Assembly: GCA_016235425.1 (NCBI GenBank)
Contig: JACRLC010000100.1
Location: 1 to 35,560, forward strand
Direction: 5' to 3'
Origin: Chloroflexota bacterium
GTDB taxonomy: Bacteria; Chloroflexota; Anaerolineae; Anaerolineales; Villigracilaceae
Length of the DNA: 35,560 nucleotides
The notes beneath the pieces were generated by a model. That model saw only the letters and a list, made by a program, of their open reading frames with translations. It searched no databases and was not told where the DNA came from. Positions 1,591 through 19,222 of the stretch are shown here, piece by piece (within the stretch, counting starts at the first letter, position 1; each line of letters starts with the position of its first letter). The position numbers and the translations under genes are program-made.

Positions 1591-1609
1591 TTTTGACAAT
1601 CGAATATTT

Positions 1610-1764
1610 ACCTTCGGGGCAGGGTGAAATTCCCGATCGGTGGTAAAGCCCACGAGCCTCTTTGGGCAGTGACAGTTTCCTTTTTGGGAAACAGGCGCCG
1701 CATAAAGCAAGCATGACCCGGTGAAACTCCGGGGCCGACAGTGATAGTCTGGATAGAAGAAGGT
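1610..1764 (+). ncRNA. FMN riboswitch (RFN element)
   Basis: The conserved RFN core is recognisable: closing stem P1 ACCTTC (1610-1615) with GAAGGT (1759-1764), followed by GGGGCAGGGTGAAATTCCC, then CGGTGGTAAAGCCCACGAGC, and on the 3' side CCGGTGAAACTCCGGGGCCG and ACAGTGATAGTCTGGAT. The variable arm contains its own hairpin (GTTTCC / GGGAAAC, about 1675-1695). These blocks match the established FMN-binding aptamer. An intrinsic terminator follows 45 bases later, so control is probably by premature transcription termination when FMN is bound. The regulated genes are the NMT1/THI5-type ABC importer at 1981-4664, consistent with riboflavin uptake. Confidence 0.96.
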
Positions 1765-1808
1765 TCCTTTGGCTGGCCGTGTGTTCACGCGGACAGGCTG
1801 TTTTGACG

Positions 1809-1840: not shown

Positions 1841-1918
1841 CGTCTCAGCCGCCTCACGCGTGACCTGTGGCCTGTCCTCACGCCCCGCGGTTTAATCTCT
1901 GCGAGGCGATTTTTTTTC

Positions 1919-1969
1919 GGAGTCCAACGACTCCTGTCGTTGGTGCAAAGTCGGGAGACTTTGCACTCC
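1919..1969 (+). repeat. Twin-hairpin dispersed repeat, copy 1
   Basis: The outer arms GGAGT (1919-1923) and ACTCC (1965-1969) enclose two perfect 7-bp hairpins: CCAACGA-CTCCTG-TCGTTGG (1924-1943) and GCAAAGT-CGGGAG-ACTTTGC (1945-1964). The hexamer loops are complementary to each other, allowing one G-U pair. The same architecture with different stem sequences occurs at 24909-24963 and 26731-26784, both inverted relative to this copy. Here the element ends 11 bases before the permease start and takes the place where a Shine-Dalgarno would be expected. Confidence 0.85.
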
Positions 1970-1980
1970 AAACAACCAAC

Positions 1981-2769
1981 ATGACATCACCTACCCTCCG
2001 TAACCTCCCGCGCGTTGCCAGCAAGAATCGTCACTGGCTGGGGCTTGGTTCCCTGCTTCTCGGTTTGTTTTGCTGGTGGCTGGCCGCGCGTGTTTCCGGC
2101 CTGCCCGCCTTCATTCTGCCATCCCCATCGGATGTGTGGACGCGCTTCATCAAGGCTTTGCTGGATGGCAGTCTGTTCGTCCATACGGGGGTGACGTTGC
2201 TTGAGATCCTGCTGGGGTTGGGGACGGGTGTTTTTCTCGCGACGGTTTTAGGTTATCTTGTAGCCAAGTCGCGGGCACTGGAACGCGCGCTTTCGCCGTA
2301 TCTTGTGGCGAGTCAGGCGGTGCCGCTGGTGGCGATTGCTCCGTTGCTCGTCATCTGGTTTGGGCCGGGGATGTTCTCGAAGATGTTGATCTGCGCGTTG
2401 ATTGTGTTCTTTCCCGTTTTGGTCAATACGGTTGTGGGTGTTCGCGCTGTGCCGCCAGCCCTGCATGACTTGATGCGTTCGTTACGCGCCTCGCGGCGTG
2501 AGATTTTGATCAAACTCGAAGTGCCTGCGGCTTTGCCTGTATTCCTTGGCGGGCTTCGCATCGGTGCGACACTTTCGGTCATCGGCGCGGTGGTAGGCGA
2601 GCTCGTCGGCGCAGATAGCGGACTTGGATTTCTCATCAACGTGGGACGCGGTCAATACGACACGGCGCTGGTCTTTGTAGCGGTGTTCACGCTGATTGCA
2701 CTGGCGTTGATGTTGTATGGCTTTGTGATTCTGTTGGAGAAGAAGTTTTTGAATTGGCAGGAGCGTTGA
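1981..2769 (+). CDS. ribX: Riboflavin ABC importer, permease subunit (RibX-like)
   Basis: A 262-residue inner-membrane permease of the binding-protein-dependent transport family related to SsuC, TauC and ThiX. About six hydrophobic segments are visible; the first is GLGSLLLGLFCWWLAARVSG near residue 20. The ATPase-contacting EAA loop is around EVPAALPVFLGGLRIGA (about residues 180-197). The ATG at 1981 fits the family N-terminus; the frame is open back to a GTG at 1867, but the extra residues are encoded by the repeat. There is no Shine-Dalgarno before 1981. Being first behind an FMN riboswitch and followed by a THI5-like binding protein and an ATPase matches the described RibXY riboflavin importer of Chloroflexi. 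The substrate is inferred from regulation, not from binding residues. Confidence 0.88.
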   Translation: MTSPTLRNLPRVASKNRHWLGLGSLLLGLFCWWLAARVSGLPAFILPSPSDVWTRFIKALLDGSLFVHTGVTLLEILLGLGTGVFLATVLGYLVAKSRALERALSPYLVASQAVPLVAIAPLLVIWFGPGMFSKMLICALIVFFPVLVNTVVGVRAVPPALHDLMRSLRASRREILIKLEVPAALPVFLGGLRIGATLSVIGAVVGELVGADSGLGFLINVGRGQYDTALVFVAVFTLIALALMLYGFVILLEKKFLNWQER

Positions 2770-2818
2770 ACGTCAAATGTTCAATGTTAAACATTCAACA
2801 CATCAAAGGAGATTCATT

Positions 2819-3799
2819 ATGTTACGCAAGTTGGTTTTGATCATGCTTGGGATGGCACTCTTTCTTTCGGCCTGTGGCAGTTCACAGTCCGGGAATGAAG
2901 CGGGGAACTTGGTCCACATTAAACTGCCGCTTGGATATATCCCGAATGTGCAGTTCGCACCGTTGTATGTCGGAGTCGAAAAAGGATATTTCAAGGACGA
3001 GGGGATTGAGATCGAGTTTGATTATTCGTTCGAGACCGATGCGATGGCGCTGGTGGGCGCAGGTGAGTTGCAATTCGCGGTGGTTTCGGGCGAGCAGATT
3101 TTGCTGGCGCGCGCGCAAGAGCTGCCCGTGGTGTATGTGGCGGCGTGGTATCAGCAATATCCTGTGGCGGTGGTATCGAAAGCCGAGCAGGGAATCCTGA
3201 CGCCCGCAGATTTGAAGGATAAAAAGATCGGCCTGCCCGGTTTGTTTGGCGCGAATTACATTGGGTTGGATGCGCTGCTGTTTTCCGCGGGTCTGACGGA
3301 AGCGGACGTGACGCTCGACTCGATTGGTTTCAATCAAGTGGAAGCGCTGGCAACAGACCAGGAGCAGGCGGTTTCGGTGTATGCCGCGAATGAGCCGGTG
3401 CAGTTGCGCGCGCAGGGTTATGAGATCAATGAAATCCTTGTGGCCGATCATGTGCAGTTGGCGTCAAACGGCTTGATCACGAATGAAAAGACGATTGCTG
3501 AAAATCCCGAACTCGTGAAGAGCATGGTCGCGGCGCTGGTGAAGGCGTTGGAATATACGATTACGAATCCGGATGACGCGTATGAGTTGAGCAAGGCGCA
3601 CGTGGAAGGTCTTGCCGATGCGGACGAGGCCGTGCAAAAGGAAGTGCTGGCGCGTTCGATTGAGTTGTGGCAGGCCGAGCGTGTGGGTTTGTCGGATATG
3701 CAAGCGTGGGAGAATATGCAGGATACGCTGCTCAAGATGGGGCTGCTCACTGAGGCGTTGGATTTGAGCAAGGCGTTTACGAACGAGTTTGTGCCGTAG
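2819..3799 (+). CDS. ribY: Riboflavin ABC importer, substrate-binding lipoprotein (RibY-like)
   Basis: A 326-residue NMT1/THI5-like solute-binding protein. Residues 1-19 are a lipoprotein signal ending in LSAC, so the mature protein should be tethered outside the membrane and hand ligand to the permease. The motif LPLGYIPNVQFAPLYVGVEK, followed by GYFKDEGIEIEF, is the typical N-terminal lobe of this family; GLPGLFGANYIGLDALL lies in the usual ligand-cleft region. The ATG at 2819 was chosen because AAAGGAG precedes it by 7 bases and it starts the signal peptide; an upstream in-frame ATG at 2777 has no such site. The gene lies about 50 bases after the permease and shares its riboswitch. Riboflavin as ligand is inferred from the FMN riboswitch; a thiamine-precursor ligand would be the alternative for this fold. 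Confidence 0.88.
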   Translation: MLRKLVLIMLGMALFLSACGSSQSGNEAGNLVHIKLPLGYIPNVQFAPLYVGVEKGYFKDEGIEIEFDYSFETDAMALVGAGELQFAVVSGEQILLARAQELPVVYVAAWYQQYPVAVVSKAEQGILTPADLKDKKIGLPGLFGANYIGLDALLFSAGLTEADVTLDSIGFNQVEALATDQEQAVSVYAANEPVQLRAQGYEINEILVADHVQLASNGLITNEKTIAENPELVKSMVAALVKALEYTITNPDDAYELSKAHVEGLADADEAVQKEVLARSIELWQAERVGLSDMQAWENMQDTLLKMGLLTEALDLSKAFTNEFVP

Positions 3800-3809
3800 T
3801 TACGTGTGG

Positions 3810-3852
3810 CGTGTTGCGTGTTCCGTTTATGTGTTACGGAACACGCAACACG
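3810..3852. repeat. Intercistronic 17-bp hairpin
   Basis: A perfect 17-bp stem, CGTGTTGCGTGTTCCGT (3810-3826) / ACGGAACACGCAACACG (3836-3852), with a 9-base loop, between the binding-protein and ATPase genes. No T-run follows, so it is more likely an mRNA-stabilising hairpin or repeat than a terminator. Confidence 0.75.
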
Positions 3853-3890
3853 AATTAAGTATGGCGCGTATTTTACGCAGGTTTATTGAG

Positions 3891-4664
3891 ATGACAGTTT
3901 CCAAATTCCCCATCCTCACAGTTCAGGATTTATCCGTTGTCTTCCCGGATAACAACGGCGGATTGAACGCGCTGGATGACGTTTCGTTTGAGGTTTGTCC
4001 GCAGGAGTTCATTTGTTTTCTCGGGCCGTCGGGTTCGGGCAAGACGACGCTCCTGCGAATCCTCGCGGGGCTTTTGCGACCCACTGAGGGACAGGTGCAT
4101 TTTGTCCGCAGTCAGCAGCCGAAGATTGGCATGGTCTTTCAGCAGTCCAATCTCATGCCGTGGCGCACGGTGATGGACAACATCAAGCTTCCTCTTGAAC
4201 TGGAGGGGATGGGTGAATCGAAGGCGCGCGTCCGCGCGCAGGAAATGATCGAATTGGTTGGACTTCAAGGCTTTGAGGACAACTGGCCCCGGGATTTGTC
4301 CGGTGGGATGGCGCAACGCGTGGCCCTGGCCCGGGCGCTCATCCATGACCCTGACCTGCTCCTGCTCGATGAGCCTTTTGGGTCGCTGGATGCGATCACC
4401 CGCGAACGCATGTGGACGGAGTTATCCCGCATCTGGCAGGCGCGCCAGCCCGTCACAGACGGGCCAGGAAAGACGGTCATCATGGTGACACATTCGATCA
4501 ATGAGTCGCTGTTTCTGGCGGACCGTGTGCTGGTGCTGACGCAGAGACCGGGCAGGGTCAAACTGGATTTGAAAGTTGATCTACCGCGTCCGCGCAAGGA
4601 GGATATTCGTTACACCCCGCATTTTGGGAAACTGGCGCGGAAGTTGAGAGAGGCGATTGAGTAA
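3891..4664 (+). CDS. Riboflavin ABC importer, ATPase subunit
   Basis: A 257-residue ABC ATPase of the nitrate/sulfonate/taurine (SsuB/TauB) type that would power the RibXY-like importer. Visible motifs are Walker A GPSGSGKTT, the Q-loop region MVFQQSNLMPW, signature LSGGMAQRVALARAL, Walker B LLLLDEPFGSLD and the H-loop VTHS. I prefer the ATG at 3891 (MTVSKFPILTV) as it best fits the family N-terminus; the in-frame ATG at 3861 is possible, and neither has a strong Shine-Dalgarno. It is the third gene of the riboswitch-controlled unit and is followed by a terminator at 4672-4711. Confidence 0.9.
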   Translation: MTVSKFPILTVQDLSVVFPDNNGGLNALDDVSFEVCPQEFICFLGPSGSGKTTLLRILAGLLRPTEGQVHFVRSQQPKIGMVFQQSNLMPWRTVMDNIKLPLELEGMGESKARVRAQEMIELVGLQGFEDNWPRDLSGGMAQRVALARALIHDPDLLLLDEPFGSLDAITRERMWTELSRIWQARQPVTDGPGKTVIMVTHSINESLFLADRVLVLTQRPGRVKLDLKVDLPRPRKEDIRYTPHFGKLARKLREAIE

Positions 4665-11643: not shown

Positions 11644-12312
11644 TTAAAAATATATGGCAATCAACGGCCAGTTGACTGTCAGATCGTAAATTCCGACACT
11701 CAACAATAACAATCCACTTGCCAGATTGATCAACCGCGCCCGCATCGCGAACTGGCGCGTGATCCATCTTTGAGCCGCGCCGGAGAGAAATGACAATACG
11801 AGAAGCGGCATCCCAAAGCCCAAACCAAACCACAGGAAAATGTTGAGTTTGCTCAATGCTTCCGCGGCAGTAAGGGAGATCGCAAAAATACTGACCACAA
11901 GCGGGCCTGAACAGGGTAGCGCAATCGGCCCATACAACAATCCGTACACGAACGCGTTGATAAACGGGTGAGACAGCACAGGCACTCGCACCTGGGGAAG
12001 TTGTTTGAACGGATTGATGTTCAGCAACAGCAATACGCCCAGCGTGATGATGGTCAGGTCGGCTAGGGGGAGAACGAACGAGAGCGCCTTTCCGATTGAA
12101 ACCGAGAGCAAAGCGATCACGCCGCCGAGCGCGAGCATCATCGTCAGCACGCCGGCAAGGACGAAGAACCCAAGCATATAGCGGCCAGGCTTGCCTTGCA
12201 GACCTTCCTGCCCGCCGCTGATGTAGGCAAGATAACCGGGATAGAGCGGCAGTACACAGGGACTGGTCGTTGCCAACAAGCCAAGAGAAAGTGAAGTGAT
12301 GATGATTTCCAT
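11644..12312 (-). CDS. ccdA: Cytochrome c biogenesis/thiol reductant carrier CcdA
   Basis: A 222-residue CcdA/DsbD-transmembrane-type protein that carries reducing equivalents from cytoplasmic thioredoxin across the membrane. It has six hydrophobic segments. The first Cys motif is SPCVLPLYPGYLAYISG (segment 1), with the second in the ALPCSGPLVVSIF segment; these are the paired membrane cysteines of the family. It follows the TlpA-like lipoprotein gene on the minus strand after a hairpin-containing 56-base gap, so that lipoprotein is the obvious acceptor. Other acceptors could be the UxxC redoxin and DsbA-like protein encoded within 7 kb. The ATG at 12312 lacks a strong Shine-Dalgarno. Confidence 0.93.
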   Translation of the reverse strand: MEIIITSLSLGLLATTSPCVLPLYPGYLAYISGGQEGLQGKPGRYMLGFFVLAGVLTMMLALGGVIALLSVSIGKALSFVLPLADLTIITLGVLLLLNINPFKQLPQVRVPVLSHPFINAFVYGLLYGPIALPCSGPLVVSIFAISLTAAEALSKLNIFLWFGLGFGMPLLVLSFLSGAAQRWITRQFAMRARLINLASGLLLLSVGIYDLTVNWPLIAIYF

Positions 12313-12316
12313 TTTT

Positions 12317-12364
12317 TTAAACAGGCGACAATCACTTCCGAAGTGACTGTCACCTGTTTTTTTT
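12317..12364. repeat. Hairpin between the TlpA-like gene and ccdA
   Basis: Imperfect inverted arms AAACAGGCGACAATCACTT and AAGTGACTGTCACCTGTTT with a CCG loop; two positions are not complementary. On the plus strand it is followed by a T-run (to 12364), on the coding strand by A-tracts. It may tune the relative expression of the two genes or be a mobile repeat, since similar GTGAC/GTCAC motifs occur at 9311 and 10067-10190. Confidence 0.6.
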
Positions 12365-12368
12365 CCTT

Positions 12369-13070
12369 TTACATACCTTCATCCAGATACGGCTGGATGG
12401 CTTTCATCAAATCGTCCGCGCTCTTGAGACCGAAAGGCAGGGGATGAGCCGCGCCGTGCCTGTCAACCACAAGGATTGGTGTGAACGGAGGATTAAGGAA
12501 TTGATCACCGTACAACGCCGCGATCTCATGCGAAACATCTGCGGATGCGATTGCATACAGCCAGTCGAAGCCTGTGCGATTTACGTAATCGTTTAATGTC
12601 TCCGCGCTTTCATTTGGGTCAATGTCAATCGTAAGGCTCACAAGGTCATCGCGGCTTCCGAGCACTTCATGATAGGCCTTGATCTGTTCCTGCTGGGACA
12701 GGCAGTTCGAGCACCAGACGGCCATTGTCTCCACCAGCACCACCTTGCCCTTGAAGTTATTGACCGTGAATGCCTGGCCCGTGCGCGCGTCGGTCAAGGA
12801 GGCCGAAAACCAGTCCGGGCTTTCCATCATCGCTTCCGGCATGGCGGTTGCCTCGTCCATCATCGCGTCAGCAGACGGGGTTTCGTGCGGCATCATCGCA
12901 TCGGGTGTTGGGGTCTCGTCCGGCATCATGGCATCGGTAGTGGAGGTCCCGTCCGGCATCATGGCATCGGGTTTGTCCATCATTGCGTCGGGGGTGGGGG
13001 TTCCTCCGCAGGCAGTGAGAATGACTGCCATCAAGATCATTATGCTGAATAGTGTGTTTTTTGTTTTCAT
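12369..13070 (-). CDS. TlpA-like thioredoxin lipoprotein with Met-doublet linker
   Basis: A 233-residue lipoprotein: signal peptide with lipid Cys21 (ILTAC), a low-complexity linker (about residues 22-84), then a thioredoxin/TlpA fold. The active site is AVWCSNC (Cys120 and Cys123), and the cis-Pro region is PPFTPILVVD. The linker holds six Met-Met pairs at residues 30, 37, 48, 59, 70 and 81, mostly 11 residues apart, each in a (A/D)AMM context. AAGGATTCCC before the ATG gives a good ribosome site. As first gene of a two-gene unit with ccdA, it is probably reduced by CcdA at the outer face of the membrane. The Met array could bind Cu(I) or act as an oxidant sink. Confidence 0.9.
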   Translation of the reverse strand: MKTKNTLFSIMILMAVILTACGGTPTPDAMMDKPDAMMPDGTSTTDAMMPDETPTPDAMMPHETPSADAMMDEATAMPEAMMESPDWFSASLTDARTGQAFTVNNFKGKVVLVETMAVWCSNCLSQQEQIKAYHEVLGSRDDLVSLTIDIDPNESAETLNDYVNRTGFDWLYAIASADVSHEIAALYGDQFLNPPFTPILVVDRHGAAHPLPFGLKSADDLMKAIQPYLDEGM

Positions 13071-13217
13071 GGGAATCCTTTTCTGAATGTTGGTGACACG
13101 ATGGTAGCAAAGCCTTCTTACAAAAGCCCTGCCAAATCCTTACGAAAGTATGAAATCTCCGCCCGGCCGTAATAATTTATTAATCACTGTCATCCAGGAA
13201 TCAAGTATGATTTGATC

Positions 13218-13907
13218 ATGGATAAACGCATCCTCGTGGTTGAAGACGAACCGAGCCTCGCAGAAGTGGTCAGCCTATATTTGAAGCGCGCCGGCTATCA
13301 AGTGCAGACCGCCTCCAACGGCAAACAGGCCATATCCTTTTTGGAGAAACAGATCCCGGACTTTGTGATCCTGGATATCATGCTCCCCGAAATGGACGGT
13401 CTCTCCTTGACGCGCTGGCTGCGCGACCGTTCCGACGTGCCGATCATCATGGTCACCGCGCGCCGCGAGGAGATAGACCGCATTGCTGGCCTCGAAATGG
13501 GCGCGGACGATTATGTGGTCAAGCCGTTCAGTCCGCAGGAGTTGGTGAGTCGTGTTCGGGCGGTGCTGAGGCGCACTGGACGGGATCAGGCTGGGGCGGA
13601 GTCTGATCGGGCGCTGTCCTTCGATGGTTTGGCAATCGACCCGCGTACGCGCGTCGTGACGGTAAAGGAATCAGAGGTGGATTTAACCGCCAAGGAATTC
13701 GACATGCTCTATCTTCTGGCACATTATCCGAAGCAGGTCTTTACGCGCGATCAACTATTGGAACGCGTGTGGGGAGGTGCGGAATATATTGACCCCGGCA
13801 CAGTGACCGTGCACGTGCGCCGCCTGCGTGAAAAAATAGAAGAAGATCCATCCAACCCCAAACACTTATTGACCGTCTGGGGCGTTGGTTACAAGTTCGA
13901 ACCGTGA
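13218..13907 (+). CDS. OmpR-family response regulator
   Basis: A 229-residue two-component transcription factor. The receiver domain (residues 3-115) has the acidic pair VVEDE, phospho-acceptor Asp53 in ILDIMLPEMDG, Thr80 and Lys102 (VVKPF). The C-terminal winged-helix DNA-binding domain (about 130-229) ends in TVWGVGYKFEP, typical of OmpR/PhoB proteins. I start at the ATG at 13218; a TTG two codons earlier is possible. The kinase gene overlaps by 4 bases (GTGA), so both are translated together. The gene is divergent from the TlpA-like/ccdA unit and upstream of the redoxin-msrPQ genes, which makes these the best candidate targets. Confidence 0.93.
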   Translation: MDKRILVVEDEPSLAEVVSLYLKRAGYQVQTASNGKQAISFLEKQIPDFVILDIMLPEMDGLSLTRWLRDRSDVPIIMVTARREEIDRIAGLEMGADDYVVKPFSPQELVSRVRAVLRRTGRDQAGAESDRALSFDGLAIDPRTRVVTVKESEVDLTAKEFDMLYLLAHYPKQVFTRDQLLERVWGGAEYIDPGTVTVHVRRLREKIEEDPSNPKHLLTVWGVGYKFEP

Positions 13908-15139
13908 AATCATCCATCTCTCCCATTCCTGTGATCACACGCTTCGCGTTGGGCGTTTTGCTCATCGTTGCGATTTCGCTTGCCATATTCAAAATGGTAA
14001 TGGCGCCGCCACTGGCCGAGTTGGGGCTGATGGCCTTGTTCCTCGGCATCACGGCGCTCGTTTCTGCGCTGATCGGATACGGTGCGTACCGCCTCGGCTG
14101 GATAAATCTTTCCCCGACATTGCGCTGGTCTCTGCTCGGTGGGTACGCGCTTTCGAGCATCCTCACATTCTTTAACGTCTGGTTCTCCGCCCAATTGATG
14201 TTTGTCAGCGAACACGATCTTTTGCTCGCAATCGTGCTGCTCGTGTTTGCAGGCGGCATGGCCATGGCATTAGGATATTTCCTTTCAACCACCGTCACCG
14301 ACCGCATCCACCTGCTCAAAGGCGCGGCGGAAAAACTGGCCGGGGGCGATCTAAAAACGCGCGTGCCTGTGCAGGGACGCGACGAAGTGGCCGCGCTGGC
14401 GCGCGCTTTCAATCAAATGGCGAAACAACTCGAAGCGGCAGACAATAGACAACGCGCACTCGAGCGCCTGCGCGCGGACCTCATCACCTGGGTCAGCCAC
14501 GATCTGCAAACGCCGCTGGCATCCATCCGCGCCATCCTTGAAGCGCTGGAGGATGGCATGGTGGACGATCCCGAAACGGTCAGGCGTTACCTGAACACCG
14601 CGCAACGCGATGTGAGATCGCTTTCCGCGTTGATTGACGATCTCTTCCAAATGGCGCAACTCAACGCGGGCGGGATTCCTCTCGACCGCGCGCAGTCCTC
14701 ACTTGCCGATCTCATTTCAGATACGCTTGAATCATTCTCCGAGCTGGCCTCGCGGCAGGGTGTCAAACTCGAGGGCAGTGTCGAATCAAACATCGATCCC
14801 GTTACCATGGACACCCAGCGCATCGGGCGCGTGCTCAACAACCTGATCGGCAATGCCCTGCGGCATACTCCCACCCAGGGGGAAGTAAAAGTCCATGCGC
14901 GGCGGACAGGTTCGGGCGTCGAAGTGACCGTTTCCGATACCGGGGAAGGCATCCGCGCCGATGATCTTCCGCACGTCTTCGAAAGTTTTTACCGGGGCGA
15001 AAAGTCGCGCAGCCGCGTCACGGGCGGCGCAGGGCTTGGGCTTGCGATCTCGCGCGGCATCATACAGGCGCACGGCGGTGAGATCAAAGTCCAAAGCGAA
15101 CCGGGGCGCGGCAGTCAATTCACGATCGTCCTGCCTTAA
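13904..15139 (+). CDS. Sensor histidine kinase (HAMP, HisKA, HATPase)
   Basis: A 411-residue membrane kinase starting at a GTG that overlaps the regulator stop. About four hydrophobic segments occupy residues 12-128, with short loops and no large extracytoplasmic sensor domain, so it probably senses within or next to the membrane. A HAMP domain (about 125-180) precedes the H-box WVSHDLQTPL with phospho-His199. The ATPase domain has the N-box NLIGNALRHTP, G1 DTGEGI, an F-box-like FESFYRGEKS and G2 GGAGLGLAIS. It phosphorylates the adjacent OmpR-type regulator. The signal is unknown; its place next to MsrP/MsrQ genes suggests envelope oxidation, by analogy with HprS. Confidence 0.93.
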   Translation: MKSSISPIPVITRFALGVLLIVAISLAIFKMVMAPPLAELGLMALFLGITALVSALIGYGAYRLGWINLSPTLRWSLLGGYALSSILTFFNVWFSAQLMFVSEHDLLLAIVLLVFAGGMAMALGYFLSTTVTDRIHLLKGAAEKLAGGDLKTRVPVQGRDEVAALARAFNQMAKQLEAADNRQRALERLRADLITWVSHDLQTPLASIRAILEALEDGMVDDPETVRRYLNTAQRDVRSLSALIDDLFQMAQLNAGGIPLDRAQSSLADLISDTLESFSELASRQGVKLEGSVESNIDPVTMDTQRIGRVLNNLIGNALRHTPTQGEVKVHARRTGSGVEVTVSDTGEGIRADDLPHVFESFYRGEKSRSRVTGGAGLGLAISRGIIQAHGGEIKVQSEPGRGSQFTIVLP

Positions 15140-15209: not shown

Positions 15210-15755
15210 ATGCAGCGCCTCTTACTGATTGGATTATTTTTGACCCTGACCGCCTGCGCATCTGCACCCCAACCCATGAATACCCCTTCTTCGATCCCCG
15301 CCGCCCTTTCGGACCTCGGGCCTGCTCCCGAACTAACGAGCGACACCTGGCTGAATGTAGATTCACCCCTGCGCCTCACAGATTTGCGTGGCAAAGTCGT
15401 TGCCATTGACATGTGGACGTTTGGCTGAATCAACTGCCAGCATGTGATTCCTTCATTGAAGGAATGGGACCAAAAATACCGCGAACAGGGGCTCGTCATC
15501 ATCGGCAATCATTATCCCGAATTTGATTACGAAGCCAGCCTGGATAATCTCAAGGATGCAGTTGCGCGTTATGAAATCCAATACGCTGTGGCCCAGGATA
15601 ATGAAGGATTAACCTGGCGCGCGTACAATAACCGTTACTGGCCCACGCTTTACCTGGTTGACAAGCGCGGCCGCATCCGTTACGTCCGCATTGGTGAAGG
15701 CGCTTACGCTCAAACAGAAGCCGCAATCCAGGCCTTGCTTGCGGAAAAATATTAG
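15210..15755 (+). CDS. Thioredoxin-like lipoprotein, candidate selenoprotein (UxxC, in-frame UGA)
   Basis: One reading frame of 181 residues interrupted only by a TGA at 15426-15428. Read through, it is a TlpA/redoxin protein: lipoprotein signal with Cys16 (LTAC), then DLRGKVVAIDMWTFG-U-INC, where family members have W-T-x-x-C-I-N-C. Thus the UGA sits exactly at the first catalytic Cys (residue 73) and Cys76 is intact. The rest is conserved in type (KEWDQKYREQGLVIIG; cis-Pro in YWPTLYLVDKRGRIRY) and ends at TAG. A hairpin suited to a bacterial SECIS lies just downstream of the UGA. AAGGAGA precedes the ATG. MsrP starts 15 bases after the stop, so the two are surely co-transcribed. The alternative is a nonsense mutation at that codon. 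Confidence 0.82.
15447..15465 (+). promoter_or_regulatory. Candidate bacterial SECIS hairpin
   Basis: ATTCCTT (15447-15453) pairs perfectly with AAGGAAT (15459-15465), leaving loop CATTG. The stem starts 19 bases and the loop about 26 bases after the UGA, within the range for bacterial SECIS elements. Against it, the tightest fold has no G in the first two loop positions, which most described bacterial SECIS loops have. Confidence 0.45.
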
Positions 15756-15770
15756 AATAGGAGCATCTTA

Positions 15771-16724
15771 ATGGGTACAACTTATAAATCAGCCAGGATA
15801 AAGCCGTCTGAGATCACACCGAAGCATCACTATCTCTCGCGCCGCGATTTCATCAAAGCCGCGGGACTCGCTGCGGGTTCGGCTTTGCTTGCCGCCTGTG
15901 CCCCAAAAGCGGAGGGATCGTCCATGTCAACGCCCGACCCCGCCACCAGCGGCAAGACCGACGAACTGGGCAACCCGGTCAACTCTTTTGAAGACATCAC
16001 CAACTACAACAACTACTACGAGTTCAGCACGGATAAACGATCCGTCGCACCGGAATCAACAGGATTCACAACCCATCCCTGGACGGTGGAAGTGACCGGT
16101 CTCGTCAACAAACCCAAGACCTACGCCATCGAAGACCTGCTCAAGAGATTCCCGCAGGAGGAGCGCATCTACCGCCTGCGTTGTGTGGAAGCCTGGAGCA
16201 TGGTCATCCCGTGGACGGGCTTCCCGCTCGCCAGCCTGCTCAACGAAGTGGAACCCACCTCGAACGCGAAGTACGTCCGCTTCGAGACCGTTTACCGTCC
16301 CGAGGAAATGCCCGGGCAAAAGAATCCGCTTTATCCCTGGCCGTATCAGGAAGGCCTGCGAATTGACGAAGCCATGAATGACCTCGCCATCCTCGGCACG
16401 GGACTCTACGGCGAAGCGCTCCCCATGCAGGATGGCGCACCCATTCGCATCATCGTCCCGTGGAAGTACGGGTTCAAATCCATCAAGTCCATCGTCAAGA
16501 TCGAACTCACAGGCGAGGAACCGTCAACGTTATGGTCAGCCATCCAGCCGAACGAATACGGCTTCTACGCCAACGTCAACCCGAACGTGGATCACCCGCG
16601 CTGGTCGCAGTCCTCCGAGCGCCGCATCGGCGAGCTTGGCCGCCGCGCCACGCTCATGTTCAACGGCTACGAAGAACAGGTTGCCTATCTTTATAAAGGA
16701 ATGGATTTGGCAAAGAACTATTAG
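15771..16724 (+). CDS. msrP: Methionine sulfoxide reductase catalytic subunit MsrP (YedY)
   Basis: A 317-residue molybdopterin oxidoreductase that reduces protein methionine sulfoxide outside the cytoplasm. The Tat signal is SRRDFIKAAG (residues 23-32), followed by a lipobox LAAC (Cys43), so the enzyme is probably a Tat-exported lipoprotein. The molybdenum ligand is Cys138 in YRLRCVEAWSMVIPW, nearly identical to E. coli MsrP. The GFPLASLL and IRIIVPWKYGFKSIKSI blocks are also typical. TAGGAG lies 8-10 bases before the ATG. It is encoded directly behind the UxxC redoxin; the membrane partner MsrQ follows after a repeat-filled 261-base gap. Confidence 0.96.
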   Translation: MGTTYKSARIKPSEITPKHHYLSRRDFIKAAGLAAGSALLAACAPKAEGSSMSTPDPATSGKTDELGNPVNSFEDITNYNNYYEFSTDKRSVAPESTGFTTHPWTVEVTGLVNKPKTYAIEDLLKRFPQEERIYRLRCVEAWSMVIPWTGFPLASLLNEVEPTSNAKYVRFETVYRPEEMPGQKNPLYPWPYQEGLRIDEAMNDLAILGTGLYGEALPMQDGAPIRIIVPWKYGFKSIKSIVKIELTGEEPSTLWSAIQPNEYGFYANVNPNVDHPRWSQSSERRIGELGRRATLMFNGYEEQVAYLYKGMDLAKNY

Positions 16725-16985: not shown

Positions 16986-17660
16986 ATGAAAAAAACTCCC
17001 TACACTCCCCTCCAAATTATCATTCACCTCTTCGCATGGTCGGTTCTCGCGCACCTGCTCTTCGACGCCATCACAGGCAGTCTCTCCCCCAATTTCATCC
17101 AGGATCTCGAACAGCGCACAGGCCGTCACGCCATCACATTGCTCGTCCTCTCGCTGGCCTGCACACCGCTGAACAGTCTCTTCGGTTGGCGCGAACTCCT
17201 CAAGCGACGCCGCACCCTTGGCCTCTACGCCTTCATGTACGCCGCCATCCACGTGCTCATCTTCGTGGAACTCGATTACGGCCTCGCCTGGAGTCTCATC
17301 GTCCAGACCATCTTCGAGAAGCCGTACATCATCGTCGGCGTCACCACATTTCTTCTGCTGATTCCGCTCGCCGTCACATCGTTCGACATTTGGAAAGTCC
17401 GCCTCGGCAAAAACTGGAAACGCCTGCACCGGGTTGTTTACTTCATCGGCCCGCTCGCCATCCTGCACTTTGCCTGGAGCAAAAAAGGTGACATCTTCAG
17501 CCTGCAAGGTGACATCATCCGGCCTTTGATTTATGGACTCGTTCTCTTGATTCTGCTGACTCTCCGCATTTCCCCGATAAAAAAAGCTCTCGCCTCCCTC
17601 CGGACCCGCGTCCGGCCGCCGTTACCCAAACAGAATCCCCAACCAGGCACCAACCCTTAA
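16986..17660 (+). CDS. msrQ: MsrQ heme-binding membrane subunit (YedZ)
   Basis: A 224-residue ferric-reductase-like membrane protein that passes electrons from the quinone pool or flavin reductase to MsrP. Six hydrophobic segments are visible; likely heme His residues lie in IIHLFAWSVLAHLLFD, YAAIHVLIF, LHRVVYFIG and AILHFAW, the usual positions. The block LSLACTPLNSLFGWRELLKRRRTLGLYAF is the family signature between segments 2 and 3. The ATG at 16986 has only a distant AAGGA. It belongs with msrP functionally although a repeat separates them. A bidirectional terminator follows the stop. Confidence 0.94.
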   Translation: MKKTPYTPLQIIIHLFAWSVLAHLLFDAITGSLSPNFIQDLEQRTGRHAITLLVLSLACTPLNSLFGWRELLKRRRTLGLYAFMYAAIHVLIFVELDYGLAWSLIVQTIFEKPYIIVGVTTFLLLIPLAVTSFDIWKVRLGKNWKRLHRVVYFIGPLAILHFAWSKKGDIFSLQGDIIRPLIYGLVLLILLTLRISPIKKALASLRTRVRPPLPKQNPQPGTNP

Positions 17661-18439: not shown

Positions 18440-19222
18440 ATGAACGAAAACCCTAATCCCACCCTACAAGAAGAAACAGTCACATTCAAACGCAGTCACT
18501 TTTACTCGGTACTGGTCGTGCTGGCCTTTGCGGTTGGCGTGCTGGTCGGGTACGTGGCATGGGGACGCCCCTCGCAGGCCGCGCCCGTCGCGGCGGCCCC
18601 CGCGGTTCAGCCCGCCGCGCAGACCCCGCAGGCTACTCCCGAACCGCGCATCTACGAGATCGAGACTGAAGGCTATCCCAGCCTCGGCCCGGAAGATGCG
18701 CCGATCACCATCGTCGAATTCAGCGATTACCAGTGTCCGTTCTGCTATCGCTGGCACGTACAGGTTTACGACGCGCTCCTGGCGGCGTATCCCGGACAAA
18801 TCCGCTTTGTCTATCGCAACTTCCCGCTTAACTTCCACCAGAATGCTTTTGCCTCAGCCGAAGCCGCCCTATGCGCCGGAGACCAGGACGCCTATTGGCA
18901 GTTCCACGATCTCATGTTCGACAAGCAGGCCGTACTGAACGACCAGGCAGGGACCATCCTCGACCAACCCGCCTACAATCAGTTTGCGTCCGAGCTTGAA
19001 TTGGATGTCACCGCCTTTGAAGAGTGCATGACCGCTCACAAGTACCAGCAATTCATCCTTGACGATATGTCCTATGCCAGCAATCTCCCCTACGACTCGA
19101 ACGGTGAGGCCGCGGTGGGAGGCACGCCCACGTTCTTCGTCAATGGTCATCGCCTCGGCGGCGCGTACCCGATCGAATATTTCAAACAGATCATCGATGC
19201 CGAACTGGCAAAGACCAATTAA
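18440..19222 (+). CDS. DsbA-like thiol-disulfide oxidoreductase, membrane-anchored
   Basis: A 260-residue protein of the DsbA/BdbD-like thioredoxin family. One N-terminal membrane anchor (about residues 20-40, FYSVLVVLAFAVGVLVGYVA), an Ala/Pro linker (44-68), then the domain with active site CPFC (Cys99, Cys102) in SDYQCPFCYRWH. The cis-Pro loop is GGTPTFFVNG. Two extra Cys (in AALCAGDQDA and FEECMTAHK) may form a second disulfide. It probably oxidises or isomerises exported protein thiols and complements the reductive proteins encoded just upstream. Translation appears leaderless. Confidence 0.93.
   Translation: MNENPNPTLQEETVTFKRSHFYSVLVVLAFAVGVLVGYVAWGRPSQAAPVAAAPAVQPAAQTPQATPEPRIYEIETEGYPSLGPEDAPITIVEFSDYQCPFCYRWHVQVYDALLAAYPGQIRFVYRNFPLNFHQNAFASAEAALCAGDQDAYWQFHDLMFDKQAVLNDQAGTILDQPAYNQFASELELDVTAFEECMTAHKYQQFILDDMSYASNLPYDSNGEAAVGGTPTFFVNGHRLGGAYPIEYFKQIIDAELAKTN

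Follow-up and report, generated by a model that had tools for sequence, protein, structure and literature searches.

In Escherichia coli, the msrPQ genes are under HprSR, a two-component system, and MsrP serves to repair periplasmic proteins in which methionine has been oxidised to the sulfoxide (PMC10151825). A 2026 review counts more than 110 prokaryotic selenoprotein families, including UxxC redoxin, TlpA-like and Prx-like proteins (PMC13188914). Its Table 1 lists a 'Redoxin family protein' (PF08534, UxxC), a 'Thiol-disulfide isomerase-like protein' (cd02966, UxxC) and a 'Prx-like thiol:disulfide oxidoreductase' (PF00578, UxxC or UxxU). UxxC redoxin selenoproteins are already known, and a member of the clade described here may have been listed before: that table gives no operon or lineage for its UxxC families, our comparison is with the table entries alone, and one of the examples may belong to this clade. 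In the titles and abstract openings searched, a scope that leaves aside subscription papers and supplementary tables, there was no report of a DipZ-type, msrPQ-linked selenocysteine (Sec) clade; passages of PMC5736913, PMC8674449 and PMC9751293, three of the papers listed, deal with formate dehydrogenase or glycine reductase.

We analysed a 35,560-nucleotide stretch of Chloroflexota DNA (contig JACRLC010000100.1), hereafter the window, in which a candidate Sec-redoxin gene stands beside msrPQ (see the table). The TGA at codon 73 is the sole in-frame stop of this gene (context ...DMWTFGUINCQHV...). According to the original prediction, it lies on the first catalytic Cys codon, and this was borne out: the same column holds TGA in 30 other close orthologues and Cys in 20. 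The second Cys was also said to be kept, and C76 is intact, as is Cys16 of the lipobox-like pattern (judged by eye). Read by eye, residues 1-16 would form a lipoprotein signal ending at Cys16, and 49 of the 51 family copies of the redoxin contain a lipobox-like pattern. Further frame damage, named beforehand as a ground for rejecting the selenoprotein reading, was looked for in 15210-15755 and none was found.

Features of the candidate Sec-redoxin locus (window coordinates)
Feature	Position	Strand	Remarks
Response regulator, winged-helix output domain	13212..13907	+	within 2.1 kb upstream in 38/51 family loci
Sensor histidine kinase	13904..15139	+	within 0.8 kb upstream of the active-site codon in 39/51 family loci
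Candidate Sec-redoxin gene	15210..15755	+	181 residues, U73, DipZ/TlpA-type thioredoxin fold, lipobox-like Cys16
In-frame UGA, predicted Sec codon	15426..15428	+	first active-site position of UINC
TGC codon	15435..15437	+	second active-site Cys (C76)
SECIS-type hairpin	15447..15465	+	8 bp, loop AUU 15455-15457
msrP, molybdopterin methionine sulfoxide reductase catalytic subunit	15771..16724	+	NF003767 E 5.2e-140, over cut-off; PDB 1xdq E 1.3e-98
msrQ, haem membrane subunit	16986..17660	+	NF003831 over cut-off

The window redoxin scored over the cut-offs of Pfam AhpC-TSA, Thioredoxin_8 and Redoxin and passed none among the NCBIfam models. As far as table entries allow the comparison, it resembles the UxxC redoxin, TlpA-like and Prx-like selenoproteins of PMC13188914 in its thioredoxin fold, in the predicted Sec at the first position of the redox motif and in these AhpC-TSA and Redoxin matches. 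A 33-row family profile matched the thioredoxin-like domain of DipZ (2hyx, E 7.3e-51; 5cyy, E 8e-51), with SOQ1 and NHLRC2 ranked next, and since the DipZ match reaches E 7.3e-51 we consider the fold to be settled. The alignment covers nearly the full domain and places U73 on the first Cys of the DipZ CINC motif; with a thioredoxin-like domain found by profile and a CxxC-type active site, here UINC, the protein belongs to the DipZ/TlpA-type redoxins. The DipZ sequences shown have Cys at the first position, whereas the window redoxin would have Sec; moreover, the window protein ends with the domain at 181 residues, and the solved DipZ chains reach 352 and 360 residues.

The active-site codon was then read in relatives. 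In 152 genomes of the family, 51 close orthologues were recovered, all at E 3.4e-64 or lower, with 31 TGA, 10 TGT and 10 TGC codons; a 44% identical Cys paralogue (L094 in G099, TGC) was left out of the 51-locus counts. At the order level, 82 of 400 genomes matched. Of these, 42 loci lay outside the family, and with G379 and G206 left out the codon was read in 40, giving 27 TGA and 13 Cys. The class search matched 78 of 396 genomes and the phylum search 68 of 400; the 40 loci fetched at these levels (35 + 5), 33 of which were rows with a reported stop, again comprised 27 TGA and 13 Cys. Together, the 131 loci fetched across all these levels have UGA in 85 cases and Cys in 46, which is not a population ratio, the class and phylum loci having been hand-picked. 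The non-UGA codon was Cys in every case (46/46). UGA thus alternates with Cys at one column in many species, the pattern that an alignment of homologues had been expected to reveal if the gene encodes a selenoprotein.

On a quick tree of the 131 rows, built with the active-site column masked, Sec and Cys changed state at least 20 times (mean with shuffled labels, 38), and the starred branches force 6 of these changes. Close pairs can differ: G011 has TGA and G019 TGT, and the window has TGA where its genus mate G058 has TGC. Contigs of named organisms were scanned with two peptide patterns, one of them containing the active-site Cys, a choice that may favour Cys copies. Among the matches listed, the best named relatives were Anaerolineales, Anaerolineae and other Chloroflexota MAGs, and lower down came about 47-58% identical proteins of Burkholderiaceae and others.

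Two kinds of apparent stop were set aside in these counts. Some class-level rows were reported with TAG or TAA 'stops inside', and the five fetched loci without a reported TGA that were checked (G524, G714, G610, G609 and G666) gave no hint of Sec at UAG or UAA, all of them having TGT or TGC at the active-site codon. Reported TGAs also fell outside the column in G215 (48 codons upstream), G293 (a Trp codon) and G630 (no TGA within 60 codons upstream of the active-site codon), and these copies were counted as Cys. In the Cys-type copy of G293 (L206), the TGA occupies a conserved Trp codon four positions before the active-site Cys and is likely a nonsense change or an error, not a Sec site; therefore, not every in-frame TGA among these loci is Sec.

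We next considered the RNA that follows the UGA. In the window, 18 nt separate the UGA from a stem in which 15447-15454 pairs with 15458-15465 around a 3-nt loop. The hairpin announced by the original prediction is therefore present, with a stem of 8 bp and not of 7. Folded singly, it gave z-scores of -0.13, -1.29 and -0.37 for three stretches against same-base shuffles; its stability being no better than that of the shuffles, single-sequence folding was rejected as evidence for a SECIS. An Rfam scan of the window at gathering scores returned no SECIS family, only an FMN riboswitch.

Comparison among relatives was more informative. Across the family, the hairpin (8 bp, 3-nt loop) sits at one fixed offset after the UGA, and all 8 pairs are standard in 27/31 UGA copies versus 2/20 Cys copies. 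Over all loci, the inner 5 bp are standard in 70/85 UGA and 3/46 Cys copies, and the inner stems of the UGA copies vary in sequence (CCCTC/GAGGG in 44, CCTTC/GAAGG in 22, CCCTG/CAGGG in 2, CCCGC/GCGGG and CCTGC/GCAGG in 1 each). With shuffles that ignore relatedness, the observed pairing was reached by 0/1000 for the UGA copies and by 51/1000 for the Cys copies. In 33 chosen UGA rows, 4 of the 8 pairs had changed on both sides, covariation was 0.244 versus 0.112 when shuffled (reached in 0/500), and sliding the hairpin by 1-3 columns gave 47-64% pairing versus 91% in place. Coding constraint does not explain the hairpin, because the Cys copies encode nearly the same peptide and are mostly without it. 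A SECIS model built from 33 rows (R1) found the window at E 1.1e-12, a score that is partly by construction as the window is itself one of the rows. The model was also used to look for another gene of the genome that carries this SECIS; the next-best match (E 0.024), the one inspected, has no usable frame around a TGA.

These comparisons weigh on two other accounts of the TGA. It could have arisen in a Cys-type redoxin through an ordinary nonsense mutation or a sequencing error, for which one base change from TGC or TGT suffices; the nearest genus relative indeed has TGC, and L206 is a Cys copy with a stray TGA. We nevertheless hold this to be very improbable, given the 84 other copies with UGA at the same column, the paired hairpin that is mostly absent from Cys copies, and the distance between the R1 score of the window, even if partly built in, and the next-best match. 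Nor is it credible, in our estimation, that the UGA is read as another amino acid through a code change or near-cognate readthrough: TGA terminates 12 of the 29 main window ORFs among those listed and is therefore a stop elsewhere in the window, relatives without UGA invariably have Cys, and the hairpin accompanies most UGA copies. Since dozens of relatives share the recoded stop and the RNA hairpin while others have Cys, the window redoxin very probably carries selenium in its active site, and the redoxin family is almost certainly one of selenoproteins.

At the fixed offset, the inner 5 bp are missing from 15 of the 85 UGA copies. In six of them (L048, L232, L235, L236, L238 and L245), a weaker or shifted GUU hairpin is possible by eye; in the other nine (L175-L177, L184, L187 and L224-L227), no version of the hairpin was placed by eye. 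L175, L176 and L177 (G312, G297 and G235) form a separate DipZ-like subfamily with UINC or UIKC motifs and frames of 375-396 residues. The usual offset holds no hairpin in them, and they may be a second Sec subfamily that uses a SECIS of another kind. L224-L227, of the phylum-level family f91, are UGA copies that read WTYGUINC at the motif. Their downstream RNA is different (ATCCCCGGTCTGGTGGAT or a near variant), and by eye it can be folded to give a GGUC loop.

A Sec codon requires the corresponding machinery, and the search for selA, selB, selC and selD that had been recommended found all four in the assembly of the window (5.0 Mb, 99.57% complete). The genome encodes a tRNA-Sec with anticodon UCA (70 bits, over cut-off), SelA (547 bits) and SelB (333 bits), both over curated cut-offs, and SelD (353 bits, over cut-off), which has one in-frame TGA of its own, read SACAGUASKL. 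Because these components are present and SelD carries its own TGA, it is very probable that this organism reads UGA as Sec. For the 31 family genomes with a UGA copy, the tallies are 26 with tRNA-Sec, 29 with SelA and 28 with a SelB above cut-off, and 7 of the 10 misses fall in assemblies that are less than 90% complete. tRNA-Sec was also detected in 131 of the 152 family genomes and in 19 of the 20 genomes with a Cys copy. A Cys copy therefore does not reflect lost Sec decoding, and the machinery is so near to universal in the family that its presence does not separate Sec from Cys copies.

The loop of the window hairpin is where this copy stands apart. In the bacterial SECIS model, a G is required in the first two loop positions, and the consensus has an upper stem of 4-16 bp, a loop of 3-9 nt, a UGA-to-loop distance of 16-37 nt and an MFE of -7.5 kcal/mol or lower (PMC13188914); in epsilonproteobacteria, the loop guanosine is described as invariant (PMC4607533). 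With 8 bp, a 3-nt loop, 26-nt spacing and -9.2 kcal/mol, the window agrees in stem, loop size, spacing and energy; the loop G is absent (AUU). That the loop lacks the usual G had been conceded at the outset as a weak point, rightly so, and the lack is special to the window: the loops of the 70 UGA copies with the hairpin are GUU in 55, GGU in 14 and AUU in the window only, and all 30 other UGA copies of the family have GUU. The site is the third position of a Ser codon, which is TCG in 65/85 UGA copies and TCA in the window only.

This base raises the question whether a selenoprotein by descent has just lost its decoding here, the change from G to A disabling the SECIS so that translation would stop at the UGA and leave a very young pseudogene. 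The window is alone in lacking the loop G (1/70 of the hairpin-bearing UGA copies; 1/31 in the family), its Ser codon is equally singular, and the Cys of genus mate G058 suggests that the active-site position is in flux in this group. Moreover, visual inspection of selD in the same genome suggests a hairpin of 7 bp after its UGA, with a GUU loop at 33 nt (this piece alone folds at -9.4 kcal/mol; the fold of a longer stretch differs). Against these points stand an undamaged frame and a perfectly kept stem, and the loop base may be an assembly error. Over the 108 codons after the UGA, comparison with six relatives gave pN of 0.11-0.18 and pS of 0.64-0.94, with synonymous sites near saturation, close to the values between other relatives; pN before the UGA was lower (0.035-0.081), a difference also seen between other pairs of relatives. 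In the part after the UGA, 2 of the columns conserved at 90% show a departure in the window, within a range of 0-8 among the 51 loci. The codons after the UGA thus still look to be under purifying selection, and for this reason the loop A is one of three things: a recent change, a change tolerated by SelB, or an assembly or sequence error. All in all, we judge a loss of decoding to be unlikely and retain the reading of the UGA as Sec.

The response regulator, sensor kinase, redoxin, msrP and msrQ genes follow one another in this order and in one direction, with msrP starting 15 nt past the redoxin stop codon. The claim that the redoxin is directly upstream of msrP withstood scrutiny, both subunit models scoring over cut-off: msrP is downstream in 50/51 family loci (not in G112; tblastn alignments begin 3-272 nt off), and msrQ comes next in 47/51, several contigs ending early. 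Outside the family, msrP was found downstream in 15/40 order-level loci (2-kb flanks, some cut by contig ends) and in 3/40 class and phylum loci (3-kb flanks, some cut). The Sec-redoxin and msrPQ are therefore linked in the lineage of the window and not always elsewhere. Two-component genes beside msrPQ recall the HprSR-MsrPQ arrangement of E. coli, which is not known to include a redoxin. HprR is outscored by many other OmpR-class models on the window regulator, and no cut-off was passed by the regulator or the kinase among the 25 models listed for each. Among the distant redoxins, L234, L240, L243 and L244, together with the Cys copy L253, have no msrP nearby and have a response regulator and a kinase directly downstream.

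All together, we find it likely that the whole arrangement works as follows: UGA is decoded as Sec through SelA, SelB, SelC and SelD with the hairpin as SECIS, and the product is an exported UxxC lipoprotein co-expressed with MsrPQ. The basis for this is the Sec/Cys alternation, the covariation of the hairpin, the Sec machinery, purifying selection after the UGA and synteny, all read from sequence. Ribosomes would read UGA 15426-15428 as Sec, with the hairpin 15447-15465 serving as SECIS, and the lipoprotein, of DipZ/TlpA-type fold with a UxxC active site, would be anchored outside the cytoplasmic membrane. There it would probably reduce disulfides or sulfenic acids, U73 attacking these and C76 resolving. 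A CcdA/DsbD-type membrane protein could re-reduce the Sec-redoxin, a candidate being the product of 11644-12312, next to the gene of a second redoxin. This second redoxin lipoprotein (CSNC) and the CcdA/DsbD_TM membrane protein form a divergent pair at 11644-13070 (-), both matched in 21/51 family loci, and are a possible electron supply. MsrPQ, which is fed by quinols, would repair methionine sulfoxide in parallel. We infer that selenium is inserted, that the protein is exported and acts as a thiol reductase, and that it is regulated together with MsrPQ and works as its partner; the mechanism proposed follows from family membership and gene position.

More tentatively, the locus might be a Sec-dependent extracytoplasmic repair operon: the two-component system would control both the Sec-redoxin, which would remove disulfides and sulfenic acids or regenerate partners that have become oxidised, and MsrPQ, which acts on methionine sulfoxide, with SelB in the lineage of the window accepting a loop without G. 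Taken in all its parts, this proposal is doubtful.

A widespread and strongly supported UxxC selenoprotein clade is thereby added in Chloroflexota, whose genes standard gene calling would truncate at the UGA. In the family of the window, this clade is tied to the molybdenum-dependent repair of oxidised methionine. Since Sec and Cys have repeatedly taken each other's place in organisms nearly all of which retain the Sec machinery, the clade offers a natural experiment on the benefit of selenium to an extracytoplasmic thiol reductase, and the window copy departs from the loop-G rule for bacterial SECIS elements in a way that can be tested.

Other genes of the window deserve mention. Downstream of msrQ, 18440-19222 (+) encodes a DsbA-like protein that matches NF041057, 'Rcas_1661 family thioredoxin-like (seleno)lipoprotein', below cut-off (128 bits, cut-off 190). 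Its motif is CPFC, and alignments for the 35/51 family loci in which this gene was found showed no in-frame stop, TGA included; among the neighbour alignments, stops occurred in those of one histidine kinase and of four peptidase S51-like proteins. At the other end of the window, the FMN riboswitch (RF00050, 102.9 bits) occupies 1606-1768 (+), ahead of an ABC transporter set at 1867-4664 whose permease, ATPase and binding protein resemble, below cut-off in each case, the SaoP/TauC, SaoA and SsuA models.
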